A stretch of 36,316 bases of DNA, from the NCBI RefSeq assembly GCF_013044125.1, contig NZ_JABEVC010000063.1:1-36316 (forward strand), in the 5' to 3' direction. Origin of the DNA: Acidocella sp. GTDB taxonomy: Bacteria; Pseudomonadota; Alphaproteobacteria; Acetobacterales; Acetobacteraceae. The position numbers and the translations under genes were made by a program. Numbering within the stretch: position 1 is the first letter of the stretch; each line of letters begins with the position of its first letter. Below, in pieces: positions 16,993-36,316 of this stretch. Below the pieces are notes generated by a model, which saw only the letters and a list, made by a program, of their open reading frames with translations, was not told where the DNA came from and did no database searches.

Positions 16993-17208
16993 CGGCTGCT
17001 CCAGCTTTGCGGGCCACTCGGGCGGCGATTTTCGCTATCCTATCCTCGGCGGCGGAGCGCCGCAACAAGTACCCGCTAGGGTGCCTTGGTCTGCTACAAA
17101 AGCTAAACTCAAAAATCCCGCTCACTGCAAGATTAGACGCTACTAAAAGCGCCTCGAAACAAGCATCTATTTACGCTACGGAATGCGCTACTAAACCTAC
17201 AAAATAAC
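16993..17208. other. Candidate oriT / divergent promoter region
   Basis: This is the 216-bp gap between the leftward relaxase operon and the rightward accessory gene. It becomes AT-rich toward the right. It holds a 6-bp hairpin GCGGCG-GAG-CGCCGC (17049-17063). GCTAC followed by an A-rich run occurs at 17093, 17139, 17175 and 17187, with a variant CCTAC-AAAA at 17196; the spacing shrinks rightward (46, 36, 12, 9 bases). Clustered short repeats next to a relaxase gene are typical of oriT, where accessory proteins bind. I cannot place the nic site. Confidence 0.5.
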
Positions 17209-17244
17209 TTGACCAAAAGAACCAATCTGGAGCCTGATAGCACC

Positions 17245-17795
17245 ATGGTCGGCAAACGCATTCCTCCTGACAATGAAATCGAAGCCCTCGCGGCGATGTT
17301 GCGCCCGCTGGTTAAGCGCGGCGAAACAATCCGCCCGTTCCTCCGGCGCAATCAAACCCGGTTGCGGGAAATCGTGGATGAGGAATCCTGGGCCAGTTTG
17401 GCGCTCGTCCTGACAAAACTCGGCATGACCTACAGCACGGGCCGGGCCTGGACCGCGCACACCATCCGGGTTGAAATGACGCGCGCCATCGCCCCTCGCA
17501 AAAGGGAGCGCGATCAGCAAAAAACTGCCACAGTCGAACCTCACGCGCCTTTGCTGTCCGCGCCCCAAGCGGCGCCTCATGCGGCTTCACCTTCGCAAAC
17601 GCCACCCGATTCCGGGCCACAATTCAAGCCCGCCTCCCCCCTCCCGCGCCCGTGCCAGCGCCTCATCCACTCGCGGCAAACCCAGCACCGAAATTCAAAG
17701 CCTTTTCGGTAAAGCCCAACGCACCACCCCAGGAACCAACCCCGGCTGAACTTCAAGAGCGTGAGGAAATTCAAAAACGCTTCTTCCCATCATAA
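17245..17795 (+). CDS. Mobilisation accessory protein, frameshifted
   Basis: A small DNA-binding-like protein divergent from the relaxase operon. The start is uncertain: ATG 17245 has GGAG 12 bases upstream, and a TTG at 17209 is in the same frame. Residues 1-85 are helical and end TYSTGRAWTAHTIRVEMTRA, a pattern like the end of helix-turn-helix domains in plasmid mobilisation and recombinase proteins. Then comes a proline-rich tail. As written the frame stops at 17712, but adding one C to the C6 run at 17636-17641 restores a tail (PAPKFKAFSVKPNAPPQ ... ELQEREEIQKRFFPS) ending at TAA 17793-17795. The restored tail has better composition, so the shift is a recent mutation or a sequencing error. 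Confidence 0.6.
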
Positions 17796-18278
17796 TGATC
17801 CATTCTTTTCCGATGAAATCGGCAAAGCCGTTATTTTATGTGCAGGATAGGCGGCTGGTGATACTCCGGCGCGATATGCCACGCTCAATGTTAGGGAGCG
17901 AACCGGCTTACGGAAGATGAAAGACGTGATATAAGGCTCGTGGGGCGGTACGCGCCGCTCTGGGGTGTGGAAACCTCTCATTACGCGGTTCGGTGTCGCC
18001 GTGAGGCACCGGAACTCCTGGACCAGTTGGTCGGGGAGCCTGTGACGCATGTCCAGGTTTCCTGCGAAACTAAAGGTCACAGGGCCGTCGTAATGCGGTT
18101 TTCCAACTCCCCGATCAGGGTCAGGATGTTGTCAGCGGGGGCGCACCGCAGACATTGCACGCATAGGAAGTGAGAATGACTGGCCGCGCCGCGCCAAAAT
18201 TCAATAGTCTGCCGGGCGACGTTTACGGCGTTGGTAAAGGTCTCTCGTGCTTTGGTGGACCAGGGGAAGGGGCTAGGG
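17796..18278. other. Gap with no convincing gene
   Basis: These 483 bases hold overlapping open frames on both strands, none with a ribosome site, known motif or good composition. A 14-base string, GCGCGATATGCCAC (near 17871), recurs almost unchanged near 24224 (GCGCGATATGCCAC), which may hint at shared ancestry with the right part. No terminator or promoter stands out. Confidence 0.4.
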
Positions 18279-18809
18279 ATGAAGCTATGGCCTAAACGCA
18301 AACCCCGCTCGGAAGCCAAGACGCCCGCCGGTCCCAATCCAGGAGCGCCGTCGTTCAACGTCCGCGCGCCTACCTACCTCGTCGCGGGCAATCACCTTCG
18401 TTGTTGGACATGCAGTGGCAATGCCGCCGTCTATGCGCTCGTTGTTGCGCCCCCATTTGACCGCCGCGATGGCGCACGACAATGGGAGCCTGGCACCAGT
18501 CCCGCCGTCCTGGCGTATATTGAGAGTTTGCCGGAGCGGATCGCAGATCACCTCAAGCTGACCGCCCCACGGTATTTCCGCGACGCAAGCCAATGGCATC
18601 GCCGGCCCTACTGGATGAATCATTGCGAATACTGCGGCGCAAAGATCGGTGATGCCGAGACTATCGAATCTGCCATCGCGCCATTGAATACCGGGCGTTT
18701 TCAACCTGCCAACGTCAAATTATCTCACGTACCACAACCGTTCGAGGCATTAGCAACTCTTCACAATTGTTCCGATCCGGTCTCAGTTGAGGCGTGGAGG
18801 ACAAAATAA
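18279..18809 (+). CDS. Unknown protein with two CxxC pairs
   Basis: A 176-residue protein. ATG 18279 follows GGGGAAGGGGC closely; a longer frame upstream lacks a ribosome site. The first ~28 residues are basic and proline-rich. RCWTC (near 45-49) and HCEYCGAKIGDAE (near 117-129) supply two CxxC pairs that could bind one zinc ion as a rubredoxin-like knuckle, separated by a ~70-residue helical part. No family is recognised. It stands alone on the + strand between the mobilisation region and the DUF2971 gene. Confidence 0.6.
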   Translation: MKLWPKRKPRSEAKTPAGPNPGAPSFNVRAPTYLVAGNHLRCWTCSGNAAVYALVVAPPFDRRDGARQWEPGTSPAVLAYIESLPERIADHLKLTAPRYFRDASQWHRRPYWMNHCEYCGAKIGDAETIESAIAPLNTGRFQPANVKLSHVPQPFEALATLHNCSDPVSVEAWRTK

Positions 18810-19020
18810 TCGGGTGGCCGTGAAACGGGGGAACCATTCGGGGGCCTTCGAGACCGTCCAGGCATACCCGCGTGCAGAAGGACGAGTATGACCCATTATC
18901 GTCATTTCCAGGACGCGCTGCGGGACCGTAAGCGGTCATTCGTTGAAAAGTAAAGAGGCTTGCTTGCCCCCCGGCGATCTGCCAGCCTTCCGATATTGAT
19001 CGATCTTCGAGGTGTAAACT

Positions 19021-20037
19021 GTGGCGACTTCACCACCTAATGTGCCCGGCTCAGGGTACCTCAACGCCGAATGGTGGCCGATTCGCGTAGGCGAGGAAAA
19101 TGCCAACGGCACGGCTGAGCTATCTCCATTGGTCAAACAATTCGTAAAAAAATACGTCTTGAGGTTTCCTGAAGAAAACAAGCTGTTCCATTACACTACC
19201 ATCAGCGGTCTGTTTGGAATTATCGAGGCGAACGATATATACGTTAGCCACGTTCGGTACCTGAACGACATTTCTGAAGTCACGCACGGACAGGAGCTGG
19301 CCGCTAATGCGCTTCGAAAGATGGCCACTAAGCCGCGTTTTGGTGGGTTTTCCAAAATCCTAGAACACGCTGCAGGACTAATTTTAAAAAATGTTGTTAA
19401 AGATTATTTTGTGGCGTCGTTTTCGAGGGTGGGTAATGACCTTACTCAGTGGCGTTCATACGGAAAGGAGAGTGGTGTCTGTATCGAATTCGATCTCTCT
19501 GCTCCGCACAGTTTTGTGCATTTTCACGCTGGCAGTCTTGCCCGGGCGGTGTACAGATCGGGGGACAAATTGAGGCTTACCTTGTTTTGGGTTCAGAGAT
19601 ATCTTGCAGAATATAGGGCAGAACTGAATCGCTCTCATTCGTTGCCAGATTGGGCACATGAAGCATACGCAAAATCTCTTACAAGGAAACTTGAGTACGA
19701 ATTTTCCAGATTCAAGCATGATTGCTTCAGTTCCGAACAGGAGATAAGGCTTATAATTTCCGGGGACGAACCTATTCACCGCCCCCGCCGCTATCGTACA
19801 AGCGGGCGTTTTATCATTCCATACTATCATGCTTCTGATACAACGCTACGAGAGGATGGTACCATATGCATTGATGGCACAGTCATCGAGTGTCCCAAGC
19901 TACCCGTAGCATCGGTGACGGTTGGCCCGATGCAAAACCAAAGTTTATGCGCTCAGAGTGTTCAGGAGTTTCTTGCAGCACGTGGATACAATCCAAATGT
20001 TGTACGAACGTCGGAATTGCCATATCAGTCGTATTGA
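19021..20037 (+). CDS. DUF2971 family protein
   Basis: A 338-residue protein starting at GTG 19021 with GAGG upstream. It matches the DUF2971 pattern: FHYTTISGLFGIIEANDIYVS near 55-75, RYLNDISEVTHG near 79-90, then FVASFSRVGNDLTQWRSYG near 132-150 and GVCIEFD just after. A later HDCFSSEQEIRLII completes it. Proteins of this family are common in defence islands and mobile elements, but their biochemical activity is not established. GC content is lower than in the backbone genes, which fits separate acquisition. There is no operon partner. Confidence 0.85.
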   Translation: MATSPPNVPGSGYLNAEWWPIRVGEENANGTAELSPLVKQFVKKYVLRFPEENKLFHYTTISGLFGIIEANDIYVSHVRYLNDISEVTHGQELAANALRKMATKPRFGGFSKILEHAAGLILKNVVKDYFVASFSRVGNDLTQWRSYGKESGVCIEFDLSAPHSFVHFHAGSLARAVYRSGDKLRLTLFWVQRYLAEYRAELNRSHSLPDWAHEAYAKSLTRKLEYEFSRFKHDCFSSEQEIRLIISGDEPIHRPRRYRTSGRFIIPYYHASDTTLREDGTICIDGTVIECPKLPVASVTVGPMQNQSLCAQSVQEFLAARGYNPNVVRTSELPYQSY

Positions 20038-20308
20038 CAGGCGTCTTTAAATTTATCCCGCAATAACACCGCGCCACGGTATGGCGATGGGACGCAAGCG
20101 CACGGCGTCCGGTTCCGTGATCACTCCATCACCAGCTTGGTGACTGACTTGGGTCGATTTGGGATCGGCGGCTTTCCCGGTTCAAGTGCCGGAAAGCCTC
20201 CAAGCAGTTATCGTGCCGCCCGAAACCGGACCAACCGCTTTCCACCCAAAGCCGAAATTCAAACCGAGGCACTACCCAACAGCCCTTCGGTAAGCCGCAT
20301 GACCGGCG
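20038..20308. other. Gap, possible degraded coding remnant
   Basis: No intact gene seen. On the + strand at 20144-20296 an open stretch without a start reads VIVPPETGPTAFHPKPKFKP. Its proline-rich, PKFK-containing style resembles the tail of the accessory protein at 17245-17795. It may be the 3' end of a degraded paralogue; the evidence is weak. Confidence 0.3.
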
Positions 20309-20575
20309 TCATTCTTTCCTATCCCAATAACCGCGCCGCCGCTTGGTTCGCGCCAGCGTGGCGAGCGCGCCCAGCGCGGCGGCAACGGTTTCATGAGCAT
20401 CAAGCCGCACCCGACCGGTCGTACCCAGCCGTCCCCAATGCCGTGCCAGTAGCGCACAGCCGAACAAATCGACATCAACCGCAAGCGCATAGAAACGCCG
20501 TTCATTTTTCTCAGGCCGGACGCGGATGAGAGAAACTGCGCCGATGGAGCCCTTGGTGGGAGGATGATCCGACAA
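20309..20575 (-). CDS. Stand-alone WGR domain protein
   Basis: An 88-residue protein made almost entirely of a WGR domain: RRFYALAVDVDLFGCALLAR, then HWGRLGTTGRVRLDAH and a helix ALGALATLARTKRRRGY. WGR domains bind nucleic acid ends or strands in PARPs and occur alone on many plasmids. The start is TTG 20575, as no ATG is available in front of the domain, and GGAAGG lies 7 bases upstream. It is the first of the leftward genes to the right of the presumed oriT. Function on the element is unknown. Confidence 0.82.
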   Translation of the reverse strand: MSDHPPTKGSIGAVSLIRVRPEKNERRFYALAVDVDLFGCALLARHWGRLGTTGRVRLDAHETVAAALGALATLARTKRRRGYWDRKE

Positions 20576-20825
20576 TTTGTTGCCTTCCGAACTGTGCCGC
20601 CAACCAGATTTGTACGCGCGGCCGACTCGGAGCAGGTGAGTCTTTTTTGGAATCCCGCTGATTCCGAAACCGCATGGCTGAGCTGGGGTTCCTATCCCTC
20701 TGGGCCCGGCTCAAAGTGAACGCCAATCATTCCCTGGAAATCGCGACCGGGCCTATTGGACCCGCGGTATCCCCGGTGACGACGTCGCGGTAATCTCCCC
20801 GGCATGGGGGCATAGGGCAGGAATC

Positions 20826-22073
20826 ATGGCAACCGTTCGTAAGTGGGAATTCAAGTCAAAATTTCGGGCCAATGCCTATGGTTGGCGTGGCTCAAACCTC
20901 GCCGTCATCCGGCTTAAGGAAGCCGCCGCTGAGATCAAATCCGTGGCAAAGTCCGATCCTGTCCTAGCGGGTGACGGCGTCGTATCCCTGGCCGAGCGCA
21001 TCTGGCCAAGTTTGCAGGGAATCGATAGCTCGTCCGGCGCCCTTGGGTCAGCGGTCTTTCGGACCCTGAACGAGCTGATTCCGATCCTTATCGCCGCACC
21101 CGCGGATCACGCCACCAGAGGCAAGTGGCTGGCGCGCTTATTCGAGGCGGTCCAGAACGACGGCGTCGACTATCTGGCGCCGATCGAAGAGCGCTGGGGC
21201 GAGATCGCGCAATATCCCGTTTTGATGGACGAATATGCAGACCTCATGCTCGCAATGGTGCGTCGTGCCTGGGCCGACCATCAGAATTTCTCGTATGTAA
21301 CAGGCACTTCTATCTGCTTGTCCTGCCTGCTGGAACGTGGCCGTTACGACGAGCTTCAGGAATTGCTCGCCACCCACCGTGTAAAATTCTGGCCCTACCA
21401 TCGTTTCGGCGCGGAGGCCCTGGTGCGTCAAGGCTTGTGGGAGGCCGCCATCGCTTTTGCCGAAGCCGCCCGCAGCAAGACAAATCCCGGCTACTACGAA
21501 CTTTCCATCGATCGGTTTTGTGAGGCCCTGTTGATCGAACAAGGCCGCTCGGATGAGGCGTATCAAAGTTACGGGCTGCGGGCGGCAAACGGCACAACGA
21601 ATCTCGCCATCTACCGCGCTCTGGTCCGTGCCTACCCCGCCCGCGACCGTCGCCGGATGCTGCTGGATCTGATCGACTCTCGTGGCGATAAAGGAAAATG
21701 GTTCGCCGCCGCGAAGGATGCCGGATTTTTCGACATCGCCATTGAGTGTGCTGCCGTCTACGGCGCAGATCCCTCGACATTGCTACGCGCGGCGCGGGAT
21801 TTTGTTGGCAAGGAGGCAAAATTCGCCGCCACTGTCGCACTGCTGGCTCTATCCAGCTTGCTGAACGGCGGCGGGTATGACCCGAGGCCTGCGGAAGCGG
21901 CCGACGCAGTCAAATATCTTCTCGCCGCATCGCGCGAACTGACAGCGCTCGACTGGGCAGTCGGCGAACTCGGCAAGCTGGCGGCGCAGCCCTGTGCCGC
22001 TGGCCGGGAGCCGTTTCAGGCGGCCATGAGAACCGCGCTGGCGCAATGGCATCAAGATGAGAACAAAGCGTAG
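20826..22073 (+). CDS. Helical-repeat protein of unknown function
   Basis: A 415-residue protein, ATG 20826 with AGGA 4 bases upstream. It is almost entirely alpha-helical and rich in alanine, in paired-helix units such as GLWEAAIAFAEAARSKTN near 201-218 and GFFDIAIECAAVYG near 301-314, which suggests a TPR-like solenoid. There is no catalytic motif, signal peptide or membrane segment. Similar repeats occur beside SWIM-type zinc-finger proteins, but no zinc finger is present here. It is the only rightward gene in this stretch and is followed by a copy of the 105-nt repeated element. A scaffolding role is possible. Confidence 0.7.
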   Translation: MATVRKWEFKSKFRANAYGWRGSNLAVIRLKEAAAEIKSVAKSDPVLAGDGVVSLAERIWPSLQGIDSSSGALGSAVFRTLNELIPILIAAPADHATRGKWLARLFEAVQNDGVDYLAPIEERWGEIAQYPVLMDEYADLMLAMVRRAWADHQNFSYVTGTSICLSCLLERGRYDELQELLATHRVKFWPYHRFGAEALVRQGLWEAAIAFAEAARSKTNPGYYELSIDRFCEALLIEQGRSDEAYQSYGLRAANGTTNLAIYRALVRAYPARDRRRMLLDLIDSRGDKGKWFAAAKDAGFFDIAIECAAVYGADPSTLLRAARDFVGKEAKFAATVALLALSSLLNGGGYDPRPAEAADAVKYLLAASRELTALDWAVGELGKLAAQPCAAGREPFQAAMRTALAQWHQDENKA

Positions 22074-22265
22074 CGGCCACTGCGATGGCGCGCAGCGGTC
22101 GCGCTTTATCAGCCCAGCGATGGGTTTGTATTTCCTGATTTTTCCATTTCTTCCGTACTGACGGCACTCCGGCGGTGCTGGCTGTGAGGAGGGCCGGTGC
22201 AGCCGGCCGTCCTGCTGATCGTATTGTGGAGACTTTATGTGGCGCTGGTGAGATGAATTGTACGG

Positions 22266-22370
22266 TTGCGGCAGTGATCGTGACCCGGATGGGCTGAAAC
22301 CCGCTTGGGGTTCAGTGGAGCCCGGCTTCTGGGCTGAATAGAGCGCGGCCGGCGATAGCCGGGCCGCCAT
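22266..22370 (+). repeat. 105-nt structured repeat element, copy 1
   Basis: This is 105 bases long and aligns without gaps to 36037-36141 with 9 differences. It can fold into a hairpin GGGC-TGAAACCC/GGGTTCA-GTGGA-GCCC, a second hairpin AGCCC/GGGCT that competes for the same GCCC, and a GC-rich hairpin with a GATA loop near the end. Differences between copies fall mainly in the two apical loops. It lies 193 bases after the helical-repeat gene and 17 bases from the end of the primase-like gene. The reading orientation is not certain. Confidence 0.75.
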
Positions 22371-22386
22371 TATGTTGGCGGAGACG

Positions 22387-23394
22387 TTAAATGGCTGCCG
22401 TTACCTTCTGTGCGAATAAGCGTTGAAGGGTTTGCCCGCCGTGGATCTGGCAATAGTCGTTCCAATCCGTGCCCTCGGAGGATGAATCGAAGTCGGGGAA
22501 AATCGTTATAGCATTGCTTGCGGCGGCGGCTTCTTCGGCTTTTACGATGCCGATATTCTGGAGCGGGATTTTTCTGCGAGGGAGATGGTGGTCATTGTCG
22601 CCGGCAATAAGCATCAGCCGAGACGGAAATTTTTCACGGAGGGCAAGCGTCACCGGCAGGAGGTTGCCGGAGTGGCAGGCGACCACAACCGGGAACTGGG
22701 TGGCTTCGTGGATACTGGCACCGGTGGCGTATCCCTCGACGATGATTAAAGGCTCGTCGGTGTCGAGCAGGCCGATGGGATGAAAGGTCGCTTTGGCAAG
22801 CGCGCCTCTCATATATGTTTTTTGGTTGCTCTGATTGGCAGCATCGAATGAAATTCGCTGACAATTCCAAATGGTGCCATCCACCGTTTGGAGCGGGAGC
22901 AAGAGGTCGCTGTTGTCAAACAAGAACAGGCCGTGAGCGCAGACGCCCTTCATGGCGAGGTATGGGTGAGAAGTCGCGGGCAGCGAATTAGCGATGAGAG
23001 ATTGCGCCTCGATGGCCGCCTGTTTCTGGCGGTCTTCACGGACCTGCTCATCGCGGATTGCGCGGGCGCGGATTTCGCGGCTCGCTTGCTGGCGGTCGGT
23101 GGCGCTCAAGGGCGGGACGCATTCCGGCCGCCAGGTTGCCTCGTAATCTGTTTTCCAGTTTTTGATGTAGCCGACGGGCATCTTATCGAGGTGCAGCTTA
23201 TAGGCTCCAGACTTGGCGCCGTGCCGGTCGCCAAGCACTGGCAGACGATGAAGATGCCCATCGAGTTGCAACGGTTGATTGACGAGTATGCCTGCGGCTT
23301 TTATGGCGCAGGTGAATTCGGCAATGATGTCGGAGACATTTGTTTTCATTCTGGATATGACAGGCATTTTATTCTCGCGAATGGCATCGTACAT
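22387..23394 (-). CDS. TOPRIM primase-like protein (TraC-type)
   Basis: A 335-residue protein. ATG 23394 follows AAAGGAG at 11 bases; an in-frame ATG at 23367 is an alternative. The N-terminal ~100 residues include HLHRLPVLGDRHGAKSGAY, typical of plasmid primases of the TraC/DUF7146 type. The TOPRIM domain lies in the second half: LIIVEGYATGASI at 216-228 (catalytic Glu 220) and AGDNDHH at 264-270 (Asp 266 and 268). Such proteins prime complementary-strand synthesis on transferred single strands. The gene points toward the presumed oriT, in the early-entering region, where a primase would be useful. Confidence 0.85.
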   Translation of the reverse strand: MYDAIRENKMPVISRMKTNVSDIIAEFTCAIKAAGILVNQPLQLDGHLHRLPVLGDRHGAKSGAYKLHLDKMPVGYIKNWKTDYEATWRPECVPPLSATDRQQASREIRARAIRDEQVREDRQKQAAIEAQSLIANSLPATSHPYLAMKGVCAHGLFLFDNSDLLLPLQTVDGTIWNCQRISFDAANQSNQKTYMRGALAKATFHPIGLLDTDEPLIIVEGYATGASIHEATQFPVVVACHSGNLLPVTLALREKFPSRLMLIAGDNDHHLPRRKIPLQNIGIVKAEEAAAASNAITIFPDFDSSSEGTDWNDYCQIHGGQTLQRLFAQKVTAAI

Positions 23395-23445
23395 GATGCG
23401 CCGGGCTCCTTTCTTATATTGATTTTTTGGCGTGTTGTTAAGCCG

Positions 23446-23470
23446 AAAAAGGCCGGGCGTGAGCCCGGCC
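23446..23470 (-). terminator. Rho-independent terminator
   Basis: Stem GGCCGGGC (23451-23458) and GCCCGGCC (23463-23470) with a 4-base loop. On the minus strand it is followed by TTTTT. It ends the transcript of the gene at 23481-24068, just before the primase-like gene. Confidence 0.9.
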
Positions 23471-23480
23471 TTCAGGCGTC

Positions 23481-24068
23481 TTAGTCGAAGGCTTGCATCT
23501 CCGCCTCTGCGGCAAGGCGATCCACTTTCTTGTCGTTGGGGAGCGCGCGGGCGTACGGTTTCCATTCGCTGCCGGTGATTTTAGCGAACGCTTCCACCGC
23601 GCCTTCGGCGGCGGCAAGCAGCGCCATTGCCTGGAGACCGACCTGGGCGGCAAACTCCCGTGCGCGGGTAGCTTTGCTGTCAAAACCTGCAACCCCGTCT
23701 CGGTCTTCATCGCGGCTGTCGTTGGACAACCGCGTGGTCAGCTCGCGGGCGAGCGTGACTTTGGCGCTGTAGAAGTCACCAGCTCCGCAGGCGGAGGCAA
23801 CAAAGGCTCCAACAATGCGCTGGAGGTGGATTTCCAGAGCCTGTTCGTTCATCGCGCTTTCAATGGCGGTTGAGGATGCGGTGATTGCTCCCTGGGTTGC
23901 GTCCTTAATCTCGTGAAAATCGAGGGGTTCCAGTGCGAAGCGGACTGCAAGGCGTTCAGCTTGATCCACGGTCGGGCAAAGGAGGCGTGCCCGTTCGATT
24001 GTGTAGGCCGGGCGGATAACCGCTTTGGCGGCCGGGGCGGTGGAGGATTTCTTCGCAGTGTTTGCCAT
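23481..24068 (-). CDS. Unknown helical protein of the leading region
   Basis: A 195-residue protein; ATG 24068 has GAAAGG 9 bases upstream, while an upstream TTG has none. The N-terminus (MANTAKKSSTAPAAKAV) is basic and low-complexity. The rest is alanine-rich helix, including FVASACGAGDFYSAKVTLA and a charged loop SNDSRDEDRDG. No family was recognised. It has its own terminator at 23446-23470, and a large structured element begins about 65 bases upstream of the start. It is probably a conserved accessory protein of this plasmid type. Confidence 0.7.
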   Translation of the reverse strand: MANTAKKSSTAPAAKAVIRPAYTIERARLLCPTVDQAERLAVRFALEPLDFHEIKDATQGAITASSTAIESAMNEQALEIHLQRIVGAFVASACGAGDFYSAKVTLARELTTRLSNDSRDEDRDGVAGFDSKATRAREFAAQVGLQAMALLAAAEGAVEAFAKITGSEWKPYARALPNDKKVDRLAAEAEMQAFD

Positions 24069-24134
24069 AATCGTGGAACCTTTCAAATTCCGAGGTGTCG
24101 GCCCATGCCGGCATCGTTTCGGTGTGGGCGAAAA

Positions 24135-24348
24135 AAGCCGTGATCTTCTGGGCTGCCTGCCTGGAGTGGTTAGATGACCGGCACGTTGGCGGGTTGAATA
24201 GCGGGCGGTCCCTCTTGGGGGGCTGCGCGATATGCCACCTGCCTATGTGTAGGCCAGGGGCCGTCTTGGCGGCCCTTGGAGACTAACCACGCAACCGAAG
24301 GCACAACGCGCAGCGTTGTGGGTATGGTGGCTCAGAAGATTGCGGCTT
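24135..24348 (+). ncRNA. Multibranched structured element closed by a 23-bp helix
   Basis: The ends 24135-24157 and 24326-24348 pair over 23 bases without a bulge, 18 by Watson-Crick and 5 by G-U when read on the + strand; on the minus strand the five become A-C mismatches. Inside are GTGGTTAG/CTAACCAC (24166-24173 with 24283-24290), CACAACGC/GCGTTGTG (24302-24309 with 24313-24320), GCCTA/TAGGC (24241-24254), GACCG/CGGTC (24176-24210) and a GGCCG/CGGCC hairpin near 24258-24273. It lies upstream of the minus-strand gene starting at 24068. It is either a + strand RNA or a fold of the + single strand. No Rfam family is recognised. Confidence 0.6.
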
Positions 24349-24871
24349 AGACCACATAAACCGAAGCGATCCCGACATGAGCCATGACACAAGAGGTTGA
24401 AGTGGGTTGTACGTCTTTATGGCACTGCGAAGGCTAAATCCTTTTCAACCGCCCCGGCCGTCAAAGATTTCGTCAAGGTTGCGTTCGTCGGGTTGACTTG
24501 TTCGGCGGTGATTACCTGAGCGGCGTAGCCACTTCGTGCTTTCCGTCGTCACGAGATTGGATGAAACTGAGGGGGCAATCACTGAAACCTCCCTTTGCCG
24601 TCCGCGATGATCGTGGTGTGAAATCTTGCGTACCGTGTTGCTGGAGCCTTTGTTGCCTCTGCTTGTTGAGATGGTGAAAGGCGGCAACGTCAGCATCGCC
24701 AGCGCGACAATGTGTTGGCCGATGGCAGCCGTGGTGCAGATGAACGGGGTGTTTTGACGGCGCTCGCTGAGCGTAGGCAGTTTTCCGCTATAAAACGTTT
24801 CTTTTCAATGGCTTATGACTTGCGCGATGTGGTTCGGTTGGTTTAAGTTGCGATCATCAGGGAGCATGGAA
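24349..24871. other. Gap with no convincing gene
   Basis: About 520 bases in which short open frames on both strands lack ribosome sites, motifs and good composition. A TATAAAACG string near 24791 upstream of the next + gene could be part of its promoter. Nothing else stands out. Confidence 0.4.
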
Positions 24872-29454: not shown

Positions 29455-29500
29455 GGTAGTAATCCTTCGTTGGTTTGGGTAAAATGTTGACGACAACTGC

Positions 29501-29649
29501 AACCGTTGCAGGGCGGCGTAGAAACACCATTGCTGGCGAGCGGCCCTGCCCGGTGCTTGGGCCGGGCAGGGCTGCGTAGGCAGCGATGGAGCGGAGCGGT
29601 GGTTCTTAAGCGGTTCTGCGAGAGGGCTTTATTTTTGATTTTTCTCTCG
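29501..29649 (+). repeat. ~150-nt hairpin element, copy A
   Basis: It aligns over its whole length with 30180-30330. Outer arms 29508-29528 and 29598-29619 pair with several G-U pairs on the + strand (A-C on the other). Inside, CCATTGCTG pairs with CAGCGATGG with one mismatch, and an 11-bp stem GCCCTGCCCGG/CCGGGCAGGGC (29543-29553, 29562-29572) caps the structure. A T-rich tail follows on the + strand. It ends 46 bases before the start of the ParB-family gene. Confidence 0.75.
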
Positions 29650-29671
29650 TTGTTTTCCGTAATCGCGGGCT

Positions 29672-29971
29672 TTAACGCGCCTGTGTTTGGGAAAGCCGAT
29701 AAGCGTTAGACCAAGCATCCTTGAGGGCTTGGTGCGACTGGCGGACATTGCCGCCAACATCCAATCGACTGTAGAGGCAGGTGAAATACTCTACGTTCAT
29801 ATCCGTCATGTGACCGATCGCTTGATGAGTTATGAATTCGCGCGCGCGGCTGCGGATATCCTCATCCTGGTCGTGCCATCCGTAGGGGCTTGGTGTCGTG
29901 TCGTGGGCTACCTCACGGCAGGCCAAGCCAAGCTCGTTCGTCCACATCACGCCGATTGGGTAGCGGGTCAT
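29672..29971 (-). CDS. Small unknown protein
   Basis: A 99-residue protein; ATG 29971 shares ATGA with the stop of the upstream gene, so they are translationally coupled. Longer upstream frames only overlap that gene. Its sequence has RYPIGVMWTNELGLACREV at the start and a late helical segment (HQALKDAWSNAYRLSQTQ), and is rich in His and Asp in the middle. Not recognised. It is followed by hairpin element copy A. Confidence 0.65.
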   Translation of the reverse strand: MTRYPIGVMWTNELGLACREVAHDTTPSPYGWHDQDEDIRSRAREFITHQAIGHMTDMNVEYFTCLYSRLDVGGNVRQSHQALKDAWSNAYRLSQTQAR

Positions 29972-30150
29972 AATGCGCGGGCATATAAAATGCACGCTGC
30001 ATTCGCCTCGTCGCGCGAAGCGAATGGGCCGTGGCGATCTGACCATGTTTCATCCCAAAAATACCACCCGCAAAATTCAATGTCGGCTGTTTCCGGCTCG
30101 CCGAGTTGCTCCGGTAAAACAGAGTGTACGGGGTCGGTGTCGTAGTTCAT
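29968..30150 (-). CDS. Small unknown protein
   Basis: A 60-residue protein. ATG 30150 is preferred over ATG 30162 because GGAG lies 6 bases before it, while the earlier ATG abuts GAAGGA. It contains FCGWYFWDETWSDRHGPFAS followed by DEANAACILYARAL, the pattern of small Trp-rich plasmid proteins ending in a helix. Hairpin element copy B lies 30 bases upstream, in the same relation as copy A to the ParB-family gene. Function unknown. Confidence 0.65.
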   Translation of the reverse strand: MNYDTDPVHSVLPEQLGEPETADIEFCGWYFWDETWSDRHGPFASRDEANAACILYARAL

Positions 30151-30179
30151 TTTGTTCTCCATTCCTTCGTTCTATCTCC

Positions 30180-30330
30180 AACCGTTGCAGGGCTGTGTAG
30201 AAACACCATTGCTGGCGAGCGGTCCCTGCCCGGCACTTAGGCCGGGCCGGGTTGCGCAGTCAGCGATGGAGCGGAGCGGTGTTTCTAAAGCAGCCCTGCG
30301 AGGAAGTTTTCAATTTCCAATTTCTCTCGC
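30180..30330 (+). repeat. ~150-nt hairpin element, copy B
   Basis: Second copy of the element at 29501-29649. Outer stem GCAGGGCTG/CAGCCCTGC (30187-30195, 30291-30299), then TAGAAACACC/GGTGTTTCTA (30198-30207, 30278-30287), both perfect, and a capping stem CCCTGCCCGG/CCGGGCCGGG with one mismatch (30224-30233, 30242-30251). Where copy A differs in the outer right arm, C-to-T changes keep pairing as G-U on the + strand. CCTTCGTT (ribosome site of the downstream leftward gene) is shared by both copies' flanks. Confidence 0.75.
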
Positions 30331-30339
30331 TCCTTAATT

Positions 30340-30534
30340 TTATTGATGGCCTGTCAGATAGCCTGACTGTCCGCGCGTGAGCCGATGGTTCAATATTTCG
30401 GATGGACACATTTCCGGCGGGAAAAGCGTTGAAATGCTGGTTTTGTCAGCGGTAAATATCCATCCGCCCGTGCCGTGGGCGTGGCGGTATGCGCGGGCGT
30501 CCTTGAGGCTCTCGAATTCGAGATACTGTTTCAT
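30340..30534 (-). CDS. Small unknown protein
   Basis: A 64-residue protein; ATG 30534 follows AAAGG by 8 bases. It starts MKQYLEFESLKDARAYRHAHG, then GGWIFTADK, a pattern shared with many small plasmid proteins of unknown role. The C-terminus is basic. It lies between the large methylase-helicase gene and hairpin element copy B and is probably transcribed with the former. Confidence 0.62.
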   Translation of the reverse strand: MKQYLEFESLKDARAYRHAHGTGGWIFTADKTSISTLFPPEMCPSEILNHRLTRGQSGYLTGHQ

Positions 30535-30606
30535 GAGATGAGCCTTTGTGATGGGGGTTGCGGTGCCCCGCATGTGTTCATGCAGCGCACCAGACAGGGG
30601 AGATTT

Positions 30607-33600
30607 TTAATCCACGTCGTCGTCATCAGCGTCGGGTGACGACATGTCTTCGAGGTCGTCGCCCATGTCGCGGCGGCGAGAAGAGTGGAAGATTTCCGCG
30701 AAGCGGATTTCCTCGTCGGTTGCGCCTGGCTCTGCTTCGGTCGAGGCCGCGAGAGAGGCTTCCAGCTCCTTGAGTTGGTCACGCTTGGCTTCCAGCTCGT
30801 CCTTCATATCGAACGGCTGGTCGAGACGCGGCGCAAAGTCTGCGATGCGGCGTTCCGCATCGCTTACGCGCTGTTTGGCCTCTTCAAGTTCTACTTCAAA
30901 CCTGGTGAGGGTGTTCTCCAAACGAGCCACCACGCCGAGGGCGGTAAGCTCTTCAGGGAGCCCGATGCGCTCGTTATTGTTGGAGCGATAGATGATCGCT
31001 TCGGTCCCTTCGATCTTATAGAGGTTGTTGACGGTTACAGCTATTTTGAAGGTGAAGCCGCCGATTTCGCCAAAGATCGGCTTTTTGCTATCCCACCCGC
31101 CTTCGAGAATTAAGCGGATCAGGTTCGCGCCCGCTTGTTTGCGTTCGGTGTACGTCACACCGTTAACGCTCATCGCGAATTGGTCCGCAGCGGTTGGGAT
31201 GCGCTTGGCCAGGTCGGCGGTAATGTGCTTGATCCGGCCGGCGTTGAACTCAATGCTGCTTTGCGCGGAATTGATGGTGCGGCGGATCGAAATTTGATTA
31301 TCGCCGTGGGCGTCGCGGAGGCGTTCCAGGCGGGCTAATTCCGCCTGGATTCCGGCTTTTTGCATCAAGCGCTGGTCACCCGATGAGATGGCCTTTGCCA
31401 TCGCAAACTGGTTAGATTGCGCGCCAACATCCTCCAGGCGGCGGACCGCACGGTCCCCGCTGAGCGACGCTTCGATGAAACGCTGCTTACGCTCGTTGTT
31501 CTGCCACATGGTGGCATCCATCGAGGTCAAGGTCGCGTAGGCGAAGATGCCGATTTCTTCGTTCTGGTTGCCCTGGCGCTCAATCCGGCCTTCGCGCTGC
31601 GAAATATCGGACGGCAACCAGGGCACGTCGAGGTGATGCAAGGCCGCGAGACGCTTTTGCACATTGACGCCGGTTCCCATCGTCAGGGTGGAGCCAATGA
31701 TGAAACGCACTTGGCCCGCATTAAAGGCGGCAAAGAGGCGTTGCTTCTCGGACGTTTTCTTATAGTCCTGCATGAAAGCGATTTGGCTTTCAGGGACGCC
31801 GCGCGCCACGAGCTGGGACTTGATCCAACGATAGGCGGAGAAGCCGCGCTTCAGTTCCACGCCATTGGTACCAATGTCGGAAAAGATCAGTTGCCCAGCA
31901 CCCGGCTGCTCGTAGGGCACGCCGGCAGAGGCGTAGTACAATTTGTCGGCGGTTGCCTGATAGATATTGAAGGCGTTTTCGATAAGCGCGTTCAATTTGC
32001 TTCCAGGCTCGTCGGGGAGCCGCGACGCGACGAGGCGGAGGTCCACCGCGGCATGGCGGCCATCGGTGATGACCGAGAGAAGAATATCGTCACCTTTTCC
32101 GGGCCGCCCGGTACGGTTTTCGATAGCCTTGATACGGCTATCGAGGTGGCGTTGATACGCCTTGAACGCGGCGGTTGGCTTCGCCGTTATCATTTGGCGC
32201 TTGCCGGTGGCGATGCGCGGCAGCTTGAGATTTTCGCGCAGATCGCTTTGCAGAACCACGTCGGCAAAGAAGCGGAAAATATCAACCAGCTCGGGCACAT
32301 TCACAAATTCGCTGAAGCGTGTGACCGGCTTGTAAGAGCCGGAGGGCTGAAGTTCGAGTTCGGTACGGCTGTCGCCAAAGTTTCCGGCCCAGGCGTCAAA
32401 GTGCTGCACCCCTGCCCGCTCCAAAATGTCGGAGGCAAAGAACCGCTGGAGCGTATAGAGTTCGCCCATCGTATTGGTGATGGGCGTACCGCTTGCCATC
32501 ACCAGGCTACGGCCTTGGTTGATGGTCTCGATGTAACGGGTTTTCACGAACAGATCCCAAGCGCGTTGTGAGCCGTTCGGGTCGATGCCCTTCAGAGTGC
32601 TTTGGTTGGTGGCAAATGCCAGCTTGCGGAATTCCTGAGCCTCATCGACGATGATTTGGTCAACGCCCATTTCGCTGATCGTCAGGAGGTCGTCTTTCCG
32701 GGTCTCCATGGACGATAGTTTCGCCTCAAAACCTTCCTTGAGCCGTTCAATTTTTTTGCGGCTTACCGCATCGTCAACTTCGTCCAGCATCGCCTCGAAT
32801 TCTTCCATCTGGCTGCGCACCATTTCACGCTCAAATTCCGATGGTATGGAGATGAATTTGAACGCTGAGTGGGTGATGATGATGCAATCCCAATCGCCGA
32901 GGGCGGCACGCGCTATAAAACGCTGCCGCTTGTCTTTGGCGAAGTTCACTTCGTCGGCCACCATGATTTTCGCGGTCGGGTAGAGCAGCAGAAATTCGCG
33001 GCTGGCCTGAGCCAGGCAATGGCCTGGCACCACCATCATCGCCTTGGTGATGAGGCTCAGGCGTTTCTGTTCCATGACGGCGGCCGCCATGGAGAAGGTT
33101 TTCCCCGCACCTACAGCGTGTGCGATGTAGGTTGAGCCGGCGGAAATGACCCGCCAGATGACGCGCTTCTGGTGGGGATAGAAATTGATGACGGGGCTGG
33201 CGCCGGGCAATGTCAGGTGCGAGCCATCGAAGTGGCGCGGCACGAGATTATTCATCGTCTCGTTGTAGATCGTGCAAAGCAGCTCGGAACGATTGGCGTC
33301 GGTCCATATCCAATTCTGGAAGGCAAGCTTGATTGCCGCCAGCTTTTCCTTGGCGGCTTCGGTTGCTTCGGCGTTCAGGACGCGGCTCTCGCTGCCATCG
33401 TCATTCCTAAAAATGTCGAAGATTTGCGGGATGGACGAATTGAGCGCGTCGTGCATCAGTTCGCCCGCATGGCGGCGCTCGGTGCCCCATTCGGTATAGC
33501 ATAGCGAGTTGGAAAAGCGGTGCTGTTCGAGGCTCCATGAGCCGATGAGCGGGACGTAGCGAACGCGGGTTTTCACGTCGAAAGTCGTGGCGCAGTATTG

Positions 33601-35766
33601 TTCGATAACCTCGGTGGGAATCCACGATGCGCCGAGGCGGGCGGTAATTTCGGAGGGTTTGAGGTCGGTCGGCTGTGCTTCTTTCAGGGCTTCGACATTA
33701 TGCGCGAAGCGAGGATCGGTTTTCACGGCGGCGAGAGCGGCCTTCAACTTGGTGCGGACTGGCCCGGACAGGTAGTTGTCGGCGGTCTCCCATTCGTTGG
33801 TTTCCGGGTTGAGGAAGATCATGCCCCGCAATTCTATGCAGACATGCTCCAGGGTGCTGCCGAGGCTATCGACGATGTAGTCGAGGTCCACCTTGCCAGT
33901 GTCGTGCAACGACACGGTAAGGGCATCGGCGGCGGTGATGATCTGCGGGCAGGCGGGCGGCAGGATGACGCGCTGACTAAAGATCGGGCCATGTTTGGCT
34001 TGATTCCGCTCGGCGTCGTAGTCCTCGATGCTGGCGACCAGCCAAACATCGGGATCGTCGGCGAACGGCGCCAGGTTGGGGCGGCGCACCACTTCCTTGG
34101 TGCGCCCGGTCGCCTCGTCGGTGATGACGGTCACGTCGGTCTTGTTGATCGGCCCGAAATTGCGGAGGAACCGGCTATAGGCGCGGCGCAGTGCCACTTG
34201 GGCATCGGCGTAGGGGCGATTTGCTTCCTGATCGCGAAGGATCTGCCGCACCGCGTCGCGGATCGGAATCATGCACTCGATGATTTCCGCGGTGCGGAGC
34301 GAGATACCCTCACCCTTGGCTTTGCCCCGCTTGATGGCGATTTGGACGGGGCGGCCGTCAATGATCTGGTGGAGGCAGTGCTTGGTGATGAGATAGGAAC
34401 CCTCACGCACCGTGCCATTTTGCGGAATACGAACGGCGGTTTCGCCGGCGCGGCGCATCGCGCTGCGGTCGGGCGTATGGATGCCGGTCGGCAGGGTATG
34501 CAGGGCCGCTTGGATTGCGGCTTTCAGCACCTCGCCGGTTTCACCCTTACAGGTATAGACCGGGCCATAAGGGCTGGAGGTGCGGTCGTGCGCGCCCAGA
34601 ACCATCGCCGGATTGTTCGAAAAATACTGGTTGCAGTAGAAAGCCTCGCTGTCGACGGTCGCGGGCACGGCCTCGACCACGTTCATCCAGCTCGTTGCGT
34701 CGGCCGGTTCGCCATCGGGGCGGCGCTGAAAGAATAGCATATCCACCACCACATCGGTGCCGGCGTCCTGGCGCATGGAGGCGGCAGGGAGGCGGATCGC
34801 GCCGAGGAGATTGGCCTTATCGGCAATCGCCAGCCGGGCGGTTGGGTCGAGCTTATCCATCGTCCAGCGGCTCACGATAAAGGCCGCGAGTCCGCCGGGG
34901 CGAAGGTTAAAGATGGATTTGGTGATGAAATAGTCGTGCAAGCTGAGCTGGACGGCGGGTTTAACATCGTTGAAGCGGACCGTCCGGTCCGAGAACGGCG
35001 GATTGCCGATGGCCAGGTCATAGGTAGGGCTCAACTTGGTCTTGGTGAAATCGCCCTGCCGAATATCGCTTTCGGGATAGAGTTGTCCGGCGATGCGGGC
35101 CGTGATCGGGTCCGCTTCGATCCCGGTGAAATAGCTCTGGCTCGCGATTGCTTCCGGGCTTGCGGCGAAAAACAGGCCGGTGCCGCAACCGGGTTCGATG
35201 ATGGAGCCGCCTTCAAAGCCGAACTGCTCCACGGTGTTCCACATGGCCGCGATGAGGTACTCGGGCGTATAGTGGGCATATTGCGTTGCCCGCATGAGGC
35301 CGGTTTTTTCTTCGGCGGTCACGAGTTCTTCGAGCTGCGTGGCCAAGCCCTCAAAACCCTTCTTAGGGGCTTCGCTGCCGCGCTTGAAGGCATTTTGTGC
35401 GAGGTCCGTGCTGCTGAAGGCGCAGAATTTGATCAGAGCGGCCTGTTCGTCCTTATTTGCGGCGCGGCTTTCGGTTTCGAGCTGGTGGAGCAGGCGAATA
35501 GCGGCGAGGTTATCCTGGCCACGGCCCTTCCAGTTGGGTGCGAGCTTCCGGTCGCCGTCGAGGCGGAAATTTGTGGTGACGGCCGCGGCCTTCTTGGCCG
35601 CAGGGATGGGATTATGAATGTCCGGCGTGGACTCACTTTCCTCTGCACTTTCTTTCATCGGTATGCGGATCAGGCCAACGGGCGCCAAGAGATCAGAACT
35701 TATCGCTGTGCTGCCAAAGAGGTCATAGGTGAATTGGGAGAGTTCATTGCGCATGGGATTTGTCAT
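30607..35766 (-). CDS. N6-adenine methylase / SF2 helicase, DarB-like antirestriction protein
   Basis: A 1719-residue protein; ATG 35766 has AAAGG upstream. An N-terminal methyltransferase domain shows EPGCGTG (191-197, SAM binding) and GNPPF (254-258, the catalytic NPPY/F motif of N6-adenine methylases). A superfamily 2 helicase follows: Walker A AVGAGKTF near 882-889, IIVDEAQEF near 1035, SGTPITNTMGEL near 1089 and REGRIERQGNQ near 1387. The C-terminal ~250 residues are helical, with a coiled coil and an acidic end. The layout resembles phage P1 DarB and related plasmid proteins, which protect incoming DNA from restriction. This role on the element is inferred. A 130-nt inverted repeat lies just upstream. 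Confidence 0.88.
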   Translation of the reverse strand: MTNPMRNELSQFTYDLFGSTAISSDLLAPVGLIRIPMKESAEESESTPDIHNPIPAAKKAAAVTTNFRLDGDRKLAPNWKGRGQDNLAAIRLLHQLETESRAANKDEQAALIKFCAFSSTDLAQNAFKRGSEAPKKGFEGLATQLEELVTAEEKTGLMRATQYAHYTPEYLIAAMWNTVEQFGFEGGSIIEPGCGTGLFFAASPEAIASQSYFTGIEADPITARIAGQLYPESDIRQGDFTKTKLSPTYDLAIGNPPFSDRTVRFNDVKPAVQLSLHDYFITKSIFNLRPGGLAAFIVSRWTMDKLDPTARLAIADKANLLGAIRLPAASMRQDAGTDVVVDMLFFQRRPDGEPADATSWMNVVEAVPATVDSEAFYCNQYFSNNPAMVLGAHDRTSSPYGPVYTCKGETGEVLKAAIQAALHTLPTGIHTPDRSAMRRAGETAVRIPQNGTVREGSYLITKHCLHQIIDGRPVQIAIKRGKAKGEGISLRTAEIIECMIPIRDAVRQILRDQEANRPYADAQVALRRAYSRFLRNFGPINKTDVTVITDEATGRTKEVVRRPNLAPFADDPDVWLVASIEDYDAERNQAKHGPIFSQRVILPPACPQIITAADALTVSLHDTGKVDLDYIVDSLGSTLEHVCIELRGMIFLNPETNEWETADNYLSGPVRTKLKAALAAVKTDPRFAHNVEALKEAQPTDLKPSEITARLGASWIPTEVIEQYCATTFDVKTRVRYVPLIGSWSLEQHRFSNSLCYTEWGTERRHAGELMHDALNSSIPQIFDIFRNDDGSESRVLNAEATEAAKEKLAAIKLAFQNWIWTDANRSELLCTIYNETMNNLVPRHFDGSHLTLPGASPVINFYPHQKRVIWRVISAGSTYIAHAVGAGKTFSMAAAVMEQKRLSLITKAMMVVPGHCLAQASREFLLLYPTAKIMVADEVNFAKDKRQRFIARAALGDWDCIIITHSAFKFISIPSEFEREMVRSQMEEFEAMLDEVDDAVSRKKIERLKEGFEAKLSSMETRKDDLLTISEMGVDQIIVDEAQEFRKLAFATNQSTLKGIDPNGSQRAWDLFVKTRYIETINQGRSLVMASGTPITNTMGELYTLQRFFASDILERAGVQHFDAWAGNFGDSRTELELQPSGSYKPVTRFSEFVNVPELVDIFRFFADVVLQSDLRENLKLPRIATGKRQMITAKPTAAFKAYQRHLDSRIKAIENRTGRPGKGDDILLSVITDGRHAAVDLRLVASRLPDEPGSKLNALIENAFNIYQATADKLYYASAGVPYEQPGAGQLIFSDIGTNGVELKRGFSAYRWIKSQLVARGVPESQIAFMQDYKKTSEKQRLFAAFNAGQVRFIIGSTLTMGTGVNVQKRLAALHHLDVPWLPSDISQREGRIERQGNQNEEIGIFAYATLTSMDATMWQNNERKQRFIEASLSGDRAVRRLEDVGAQSNQFAMAKAISSGDQRLMQKAGIQAELARLERLRDAHGDNQISIRRTINSAQSSIEFNAGRIKHITADLAKRIPTAADQFAMSVNGVTYTERKQAGANLIRLILEGGWDSKKPIFGEIGGFTFKIAVTVNNLYKIEGTEAIIYRSNNNERIGLPEELTALGVVARLENTLTRFEVELEEAKQRVSDAERRIADFAPRLDQPFDMKDELEAKRDQLKELEASLAASTEAEPGATDEEIRFAEIFHSSRRRDMGDDLEDMSSPDADDDDVD

Positions 35767-35793
35767 TTTTTCTACCTTTCATCTTCTCCCAGC

Positions 35794-35923
35794 GCGGTAA
35801 TCGGGGGCGGAAAAGCAAAGGCGCGTTCGGCATCTTTGCCTAACGCGGGACCGACAAGCCACGCACAGCCGAAGGCGAGCATGGCGCGGACCCACCCTTT
35901 GCTTTTCCGCCGCCGATTACTGC
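35794..35923. repeat. 28-bp inverted repeat enclosing nested hairpins
   Basis: Arms 35794-35821 and 35896-35923 pair over 28 bases with a single G-G mismatch and one G-T. Between them TTCGGC/GCCGAA can form an inner stem. It lies 28 bases upstream of the methylase-helicase gene. Two short minus-strand frames run through it (35840-35941, 33 codons; 35772-35882, 36 codons); the second ends at the ribosome site of the large gene. On position it is a leader, a single-strand promoter or a priming site. Confidence 0.7.
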
Positions 35924-35974
35924 AAGCCATTTTAATTTCATTTTTTCATTCAATTTCCTCCTGTAATCGGAACA

Positions 35975-36005
35975 CAAAAAAGGCCGTGACCGAGTGAGGC
36001 GGCCC
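35975..36005 (-). terminator. Rho-independent terminator, minus strand
   Basis: GGGCCG/CGGCC stem with a 13-base loop (minus strand), followed by TTTTTT. It ends any leftward transcript that passes through the 105-nt element copy 2, upstream of the methylase-helicase leader. Confidence 0.75.
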
Positions 36006-36036
36006 TATCGGGATTGCGTCAGAGCGAGCTGTCTTT

Positions 36037-36141
36037 TTGCGGCAGTGATCGTCACCCGGATGGGCTGAAACCCGTGAGGGGTTCGGTGGAGCCCGTTTTG
36101 TGGGCGGAATAGAGCGCGGCCGGCGATAGCCGGGCCGCCAT
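36037..36141 (+). repeat. 105-nt structured repeat element, copy 2
   Basis: Same length as copy 1 (22266-22370) with 9 substitutions, 6 of them in two hairpin loops. It lies between a bidirectional terminator (36203-36234) and a leftward terminator (35975-36005), in a stretch without a gene. A minus-strand reading from the edge of the element gives a short peptide-like frame in both copies (MAARLSPAALYSA), but it stops inside copy 2, so conservation is of the nucleic acid, not of a protein. Confidence 0.75.
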
Positions 36142-36202
36142 CAATGGCTGAGTGTTATGAGAAAATAAGCGGCTCCACGCTTAGAGGGCCTCCCGCCAGA
36201 CT

Positions 36203-36234
36203 AAAAACCCCGCCGGCGAGACCGGCGGGGTTTT
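36203..36234. terminator. Bidirectional rho-independent terminator
   Basis: CCCCGCCGG (36208-36216) and CCGGCGGGG (36222-36230), 5-base loop, with AAAAA before and TTTT after, so it can act on both strands. Confidence 0.88.
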
Positions 36235-36257
36235 CTACGGTCCTGGCAAGGAACAGC

Positions 36258-36281
36258 AAAAAGCCCCGGCGATGCCGGGGC
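36258..36281 (-). terminator. Rho-independent terminator, minus strand
   Basis: GCCCCGGC/GCCGGGGC stem (36263-36270, 36274-36281), 3-base loop, followed on the minus strand by TTTTT. It fits the end of the leftward gene that stops at 36301. Confidence 0.88.
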
Positions 36282-36300
36282 GTTCTTGGGAGGGGGGTGG

Positions 36301-36316
36301 TTAGGCCGCCTTGGGG
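36301..36316 (-). CDS. C-terminal end of a leftward gene (partial)
   Basis: The last bases, read on the minus strand, give PKAA and a TAA stop at 36301-36303. A terminator 20 bases downstream supports a real gene end, but nothing can be said about the product. Confidence 0.4.

Follow-up and report, generated by a model that had tools for sequence, protein, structure and literature searches.

The window, by which we mean the whole 36,316-nucleotide stretch analyzed here, is the entire contig C176 (NZ_JABEVC010000063.1) of a 2.68-Mb Acidocella sp. assembly. The contig is Acidocella-like, belongs to a plasmid, and encodes a MobF relaxase; family profile matches also identify the conjugation genes for VirB11 and a type IV coupling protein (T4CP). 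To the right of a nic-like origin of transfer (oriT) core, the + strand carries four large folded elements, named A1 and A2 (type A), C, and D (type D), each of which is separated by 28 to about 140 nt from a minus-strand gene start. On balance, we think it probable that these four elements are single-stranded DNA (ssDNA) leading-region hairpins that start the transcription of early genes on entry. The features concerned are listed below, with z values relative to dinucleotide shuffles and bit scores from R1 (the type A covariance model) or R2 (the type D covariance model, built from eight training elements).

12903..16745, minus strand: MobF (TrwC-type) relaxase-helicase gene, on the lagging side of oriT (Pfam TrwC, 1e-36; AAA_30, 4e-35)
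17069..17092, plus strand: nic-like oriT core, an inverted repeat (17069-17084, one T-G pair) followed by CTTGGTCT; the motif is shared by six MobF plasmids, the window counted
22387..24086, minus strand: p23481 and a toprim/primase-like gene (22387-23565), behind element C (Toprim_3, 2e-10; phrog DNA primase, 7e-57)
24135..24348, plus strand: element C, a long branched hairpin with a CACAACGC-GCA-GCGTTGTG side hairpin (cGCAg triloop); z -8.5; + strand -65.6 versus - strand -45.7 kcal/mol; counterpart in L010
27700..29502, minus strand: ParB-like leading gene, 600 aa as listed, likely ATG at 29454 (ParB_N, 2e-7)
29507..29619, plus strand: element A1 (type A), with a GC-GGA-GC minihairpin on its 3' side; z -4.4 (29501-29649); R1 86.8 bits, training-set member
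29672..30046, minus strand: p29672, a small gene from the open reading frame (ORF) list that sits between both type A copies
30186..30299, plus strand: element A2 (type A), the second co-oriented copy; z -5.9 (30180-30330); R1 85.9 bits, training-set member
30607..35766, minus strand: DarB-like SNF2-type helicase leading gene, 1719 aa (Helicase_C, ResIII, and SNF2 matches)
35794..35923, plus strand: element D (type D), 28 nt from the DarB-like ATG; z -9.5; core 35805-35909, R2 69.9 bits, training-set member

Folding of the + strand as ssDNA gave -65.6, -36.9, -42.3, and -51.6 kcal/mol for the elements at 24135, 29501, 30180, and 35794, respectively, and 200 dinucleotide shuffles of each element produced no equally good fold (z of -8.5, -4.4, -5.9, and -9.5). 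The advantage of the + strand over the - strand was 19.9 kcal/mol at 24135, 11.4 at 29497-29633, 5.5 at 30176-30313, and 2.4 at 35794, where the fold is nearly symmetric. A first-pass annotation of this DNA had pointed to four large folds close upstream of minus-strand genes, three of them pairing better on the + strand, and both observations hold. The elements at 29501 and 30180 are direct repeats that are 87% identical, and the end of A1 lies 53 nt from the likely ATG of the ParB-like gene. When related loci were included, the transferred strand folded better than its complement in all 23 elements compared (21 of type A, C, and the window's D), whereas 61% of background windows folded better on the compared strand (mean, -1.1; standard deviation [sd], 3.5). 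We rejected the idea that this G-T bias merely reflects a G+T-rich + strand: after the strands were shuffled separately, z was still lower on the transferred strand in 23/23.

DNA similarity searches with the elements returned little from the plasmid collection (nothing in one search, and in another a single 55-nt match that lies within A1 and was found in a Roseomonas mucosa plasmid), and relatives were therefore reached through the ParB-like protein. This protein matches NCBIfam NF010406 at 2e-181, under that model's cutoff, and 532 of 72,556 plasmid records contain a relative; beyond the window, a class-wide protein search yielded nothing except weak matches at the ParB_N level (best, 5.5e-11). 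A type A hairpin was found upstream of the ParB-like gene, on the template strand, in 20 loci besides the window, from Rhizobiales and Acetobacteraceae plasmids. The 22 type A elements, two of them from the window, align as an outer stem, a long inner stem, and a two-pair minihairpin on the 3' side; within this set, L010 is nearly identical to the window, and L005, L007, and L008 are mutually close. Double changes occur in 33 of 47 pairs (129 cells), and none of 500 shuffles reached any of five covariation measures. Pairing was possible in 87% of cells and fell to 32-44% once the partner was slid by 1-3 columns. One T-G wobble is kept in 18/22 elements, and the adjacent pair switches between C-G and T-A.

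The alignment also bears on strand. Its alifold energy is -15.9 for the template strand versus -4.3 for the complement, with the structure predicted on the template strand, a choice that favors the template; G-T versus A-C cells number 80 versus 6 on the template and 17 versus 12 on the complement. Individually, the template folds better in 21/21 type A elements tested (mean, -9.2; compare the background given above). Compared across related plasmids, type A elements hold a fixed place, ending 51-91 nt before the ParB-like start in 21/21 loci, with each start placed at the residue that aligns with the likely ATG of the window. The annotation tables of 15 plasmids all show ParB flanking the element on one side, and the opposite neighbor varies: a DarB-like gene in 3 (one of which, in L035, was assigned by size and place), another gene in 10, and nothing annotated within 1.5 kb in 2. 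A second short hairpin, of the GTCTTC...GAAGAC kind, recurs by eye in the leader between the element and the ParB-like gene, in several loci from rhizobia (L034 and L042 among them) as well as in type B loci, and is not present in the window.

In 11 other loci, a hairpin of a different family, type B, replaces type A in the place before ParB. Its core is nearly invariant (CGGGGCAAGGGC / CCCTTGCGGCG), its template strand folds better in 11/11 (by 2.1 to 11.6 kcal/mol), and double changes in 10 of 21 pairs were matched by none of 500 shuffles. Nine of the 11 type B folds have a symmetric GG/GG internal loop in the inner stem (e.g., L012:2114-2221). For element C, the one comparison made was with the counterpart in L010. 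Type D has relatives before the DarB-like gene in L010 and L033 and before p23481 in L011, L016, and L018, and the complete Acetobacter pomorum plasmid pSH1 carries three type D copies plus one of type B, at sites that precede DarB, ParB, a DUF6876 gene, and a hypothetical gene beside a zincin-type metallopeptidase gene. The suggestion in the first-pass annotation that these folds could form an undescribed class has gained in strength, as at least three recurrent families are now at hand rather than one odd plasmid.

A feature that recurs across these families is a small loop of a type known from DNA. Both pairs of the type A minihairpin form in 22/22 elements, and its loop is GNA or GNNA in 20/22, the exceptions being TTCA (L039) and CGT (L022). 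The stem changes as a pair in three elements (GG..CC in L020 and L021 and CC..GG in L040). Within the window, the loops are GGA in A1 and A2, GCA in C, and GAA in D. A cGNAg triloop occurs in 9/13 elements (7/11 of type B, plus C and the window's D) and in 0/13 complements, with about 1.1 expected; in type D, cGN(N)Ag occurs in 31/52 on the element strand versus 5/52 on the complement, with 8.9 expected. GNA or GNNA loops closed by at least two G-C pairs are described as extraordinarily stable, nuclease-resistant DNA minihairpins (PMC4686876), and the likeness to d(GCGNAGC) consists of exactly this loop on such a stem. The d(GCGNAGC) minihairpins are known as a physical motif; the type A version is a conserved part of a genetic element.

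Because the window has a MobF-type nic core at 17069-17092, the + strand is very probably the transferred strand, entering rightwards from about 17092, and the right side of oriT is probably the leading region. Both the presumed oriT and the transfer of the + strand, as proposed in the first-pass annotation, thereby gain support from the shared motif. In R388, an inverted repeat is followed by TGTCT/A, and by analogy we presume that nic lies after 17092 on the + strand; a G at 17093 directly follows CTTGGTCT. The core is common to six MobF plasmids, the window counted, in which it precedes the relaxase operon; the L101 copy is diverged, and the repeat is clear in five. More generally, a MobF nic-like core (an inverted repeat and then a CTTGGTCTGTAG-like motif) is common to Acetobacteraceae and Skermanella plasmids (the window and L097-L101) and resembles that of R388, and it could serve as an oriT finder in these hosts.

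Agreement between element and transferred strand was also found in plasmids of another mobilization type. A search aimed at relatives of Ti plasmids found the MobQ-type nic motif CGACGTATAATTGCGCCCT in 6 of 14 plasmid records, 5 exactly and W11 with 2 mismatches; five of these plasmids were typed MOBQ, and pTiEU6 was typed non-mobilizable. Given the known polarity of nicking, the strand of the element found by R1 is the nic strand in 6/6, and the elements lie approximately 13.9 (W01), 20.7 (W04), 18.0 (W06), 23.3 (W07), 8.4 (W09), and 12.8 (W11) kb downstream of nic in the direction of transfer. A Lichenicola plasmid has a MobF core at about 61441 on + and its sole R2 match at 67505 on +, about 6 kb downstream. 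A scan for the MobF motif in nine further element-bearing contigs gave seven sites, none adjoining a relaxase gene, of which 2 were on the element strand and 5 on the opposite strand, including a homologous pair with a 7-bp repeat (G009:C102 and G002:C42). We take these seven sites as chance, and they give no help to the case for the transferred strand. Two of the nine contigs have a relaxase match (36-39% identity), and there the gene order and strands match the window.

The gene layout agrees only in part with the earlier description, according to which nearly all genes to the right of oriT are on the minus strand. That applies from about 22 kb on, where the main ORFs from 22387 rightwards (toprim, p23481, p25423, p25790, p26667, p27109, ParB-like, p29672, and DarB-like) are on the minus strand, with p24815 (+) as the sole exception; it does not apply to the first 5 kb, where + strand ORFs occupy 17209-22073. 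A close relative of this leading region is in Acidocella aquatica (L010), with ParB-like proteins that are 95% identical, and a p23481 relative is present in 8 of 19 loci fetched through the ParB-like protein. The two type A copies (29497-30313) flank p29672, and L010 has a single copy and no p29672 relative, so the p29672 segment appears to have arisen by duplication or insertion at the element. At 27031-27180, directly upstream of p26667, a weaker + strand fold (-36.4 versus -32.1) may be a fifth element. From 22001 to 36000 the + strand is rich in G and T (GC skew, +0.04 to +0.19; AT skew, about -0.07 to -0.22) despite the minus-strand main genes, which would fit cytosine deamination of a strand that is often single.

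Searches with the covariance models extended the families beyond the loci reached by protein similarity. R1 matched 13 of 21 whole plasmid records, with one copy in 11 and two in 2; the matches precede ParB, and two Roseomonas records also have one before the DarB operon. The ParB plasmids missed by R1 (W03 and W05) are type B carriers, and six other plasmid records (five fetched for their relaxase, plus F) gave no match. In genome searches, the large ones run with stricter filters, R1 matched 3/38 genomes of the genus, 12/299 of the family, 3/100 of the order (an overlapping sample), and 1/385 of the class, the window's own counted each time; the 384 other genomes of the class had no match under these filters. 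Of 17 family matches outside the window, 13 precede ParB and 2 precede a DarB gene at some distance; the remaining 2 (L085 and L090) follow a DarB end, with no ParB within the available stretch. At least one of the family matches (G424:C3:234863) falls at the same position as training element L041 in W13. R2 matched 50 of the 249 family genomes searched, a count that includes the genome of the window, with 130 places listed. Clusters of several A or D copies (matches within 15 kb) were co-oriented in 26/28 cases, the exceptions being G387:C38 and G443:C8, and in 9/9 of those holding both types, with up to six co-oriented copies within 12 kb (G546:C37). The 3.6-Mb contig G473:C18 carries both R1 and R2 matches, and the large contig G463:C1 has three weak R2 matches at 302601, 4553524, and 4915549. 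Not all matches need be plasmid-borne; these may be integrated elements or, for the weak ones, chance.

The elements are placed as ssDNA promoters are: within the leading region, on the strand that is transferred, and ahead of genes for which that strand is the template. We propose that, on transfer, the + strand would enter 5' end first from nic at about 17092 and that each element would fold into a branched hairpin before the complement is made, type A with its outer stem, long inner stem, and GC-GN(N)A-GC minihairpin at the junction. Once folded, the template strand could then recruit a transcription apparatus, with a start near the foot of the hairpin and transcription running leftwards into the ParB-like, p29672, DarB-like, and p23481/toprim genes. 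Their products would be made before the plasmid is double-stranded, and second-strand synthesis would remove the hairpin and turn transcription off.

Several points weigh against this proposal or limit its reach. The folds, their strand (by energy for A, B, and C and by loops for D), the covariation of A and B, the distances to gene starts, and the agreement with the nic motif are computed; transcription itself, the polymerase or factor that would read the elements, and the switch-off are steps that we infer. A scan for sigma70 -35/-10 boxes, which used the E. coli consensus alone on elements from alphaproteobacterial hosts, gave a mean best score of 6.6 for the 22 type A elements versus 7.1 for shuffled sequences and nothing above shuffles in the window's four elements. 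The window's nic position is a prediction from a shared motif. The type D family lacks an energetic strand bias (33/52; mean, -0.97, with a background of -1.1), 2 of 6 type D elements in a separate test folded slightly better as the complement, and the view of element D as strongly strand-biased was accordingly dropped. The best fold upstream of the DarB gene had a z below -3 in 4/12 loci and that upstream of p23481 in 7/9, so some leading operons show no such element. A crude gene model placed a complementary-strand gene where expected beside 31 of 41 type D copies, for 18 of these within 250 nt; flags of an "element inside ORF" from the crude ORF caller were given no weight, because spurious ORFs are common at such G+C content. 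Several rhizobial type A elements have weak z values of their own (L037, -0.8; L038, -0.9), and for this reason the case for them rests on covariation. The ParB starts are estimated from alignment, and the annotated start in L032 would lie within the element. The A/D clusters are not all independent, since several look like one plasmid type, and co-orientation would be expected anyway if the elements are inherited along with co-oriented genes. Selection of the folds on the transferred strand is nevertheless supported, with type D, which shows no energy bias, assigned to its strand by loops.

The nearest known systems are the Frpo1 and Frpo2 promoters of F and the ssi promoters of ColIb-P9, which share the leading-region place and the use of the transferred strand as the gene template. 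In F, Frpo drives early, transient expression from entering DNA that ends with second-strand synthesis (PMC9849209). Frpo of F and the window elements are also alike in having a ParB-like gene behind one copy and two co-oriented copies, and the best windows at the two Frpo regions of F likewise fold better on the minus strand. The present elements differ from Frpo in that they are unrelated in sequence, have no boxes above chance, carry a minihairpin at the junction, are GC-rich, and come from Alphaproteobacteria. R1 found no match in the F leading region (L102), neither R1 nor R2 matched anywhere in the F record (W21), and when the four elements were compared by blastn with the Frpo regions of F (ColIb-P9 ssi not compared), matches of only 10-19 nt with E values of 0.15-0.64 appeared. 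The first-pass interpretation is partly supported, namely in its transferred strand, leading region, fold selection on that strand, and non-Frpo sequence. Frpo is understood to work through a stem that rebuilds -35 and -10 boxes. As such boxes are not seen above chance here, an Frpo-type mechanism cannot simply be assumed, and recognition by shape, perhaps of the minihairpin, becomes more likely.

A precedent for such recognition comes from phage N4. The window's type A heptamer, GCGGAGC, is of the same kind as that of N4; the N4 system differs in needing a polymerase encoded by the phage and a stem of about 5-7 bp, compared with two pairs within a far larger fold in type A and 8 bp in element C. 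The N4 virion RNA polymerase promoter is described as a template-strand hairpin with a three-base loop, a GC-rich heptamer, and a sheared G:A pair (PMC4496689). No N4-type polymerase was among the families matched in general protein scans, which included no search aimed at such a polymerase. Rfam gave no matches in the window at gathering thresholds and one at E <= 1, far from the elements; at the elements of seven related loci it gave none, with one Atu_Ti1 match elsewhere.

Much of this evidence fits other functions. The strand, fold, and leading-region results agree equally well with hairpins that are single-strand initiation (ssi) sites or primosome or primase sites, which would prime the complementary strand without a direct role in expression. 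The lack of boxes above chance and the primase-like toprim gene in the same region suit that explanation, and Frpo itself is described, in the accessible literature, as doing both jobs; a priming role, alone or alongside transcription, is possible. Priming without expression nonetheless seems rather unlikely to us, since a primer site need not stand 51-91 nt before a start in 21/21 loci or keep ParB as its neighbor while the opposite side changes across 15 plasmids, and six co-oriented copies in 12 kb (G546:C37) exceed the apparent need for priming. Alternatively, the + strand could be transcribed and the fold could belong to a structured noncoding RNA antisense to the ParB or DarB leader. Such an RNA tolerates G-U pairs, so the strand asymmetry alone would fit, but we regard this as improbable: GNA and GNNA loops (GTCA, GCCA), which interchange here, are reported as an ultra-stable DNA motif (PMC4686876), the elements of the window and of seven related loci have no Rfam match, and the RNA would point away from the adjoining gene.

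The position of the hairpins just upstream of gene starts would also suit an attenuator- or riboswitch-like action in the mRNA leader of the minus-strand genes, and the wider D family folds about equally on either strand. The mRNA-sense strand, however, folds worse in 34/34 elements (21 A, 11 B, C, and the window's D); G-T pairs become A-C mismatches (type A alifold, -4.3 versus -15.9), and GNA loops become TNC. For A, B, and C the strand test already disfavors a role in mRNA, which appears to us very unlikely. The presence of p29672 between two direct type A copies, with no relative in L010, recalls a cassette flanked by folded single-strand recombination or integration sites of the attC or IS200/IS605 kind. 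This we hold to be highly improbable for the hairpins in general, given that 13 plasmid records have one copy in 11 cases and two in 2, that the position is linked to genes, and that 15 annotation tables list no integrase or transposase as an immediate neighbor. Initiation of early transcription on the entering strand remains the reading that we prefer.

We further speculate, as a broader and distinctly more doubtful proposal, that alphaproteobacterial conjugative plasmids use box-less ssDNA promoters built from interchangeable hairpin modules (A, B, D, and probably C) that share an ultra-stable GN(N)A minihairpin, are read on the entering strand through structure, as in N4, and not through -35/-10 sequence, and are shuffled into co-oriented arrays of up to six ahead of leading genes. 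As far as the available literature goes, the best-known single-strand promoters are those of enterobacterial plasmids, and searches for such promoters have relied on similarity to Frpo or on -35/-10 boxes. Samuel et al. searched by BLAST with known Frpo and ssi sequences and by -35/-10 consensus (PMC11541004); the accessible main text contains neither "alphaproteobacteria" nor "rhizob," and the same applies to the accessible text of PMC12826799, which used sequences of an earlier large-scale analysis. Among the matches listed in a literature search that mostly did not extend to subscription journals, no title or abstract start described such elements in these plasmids. The principle is already known, and the families, their hosts, their structure, and the apparent absence of boxes look new. 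If the proposal is true, the existence of structure-defined families in plasmids of the Ti/Ri type, in symbiotic plasmids, and in those of acetic acid bacteria would point to early expression from incoming DNA as a general phenomenon, one that arose with unrelated sequences and may need no promoter boxes. The covariance models aid in locating leading regions and the transferred strand.

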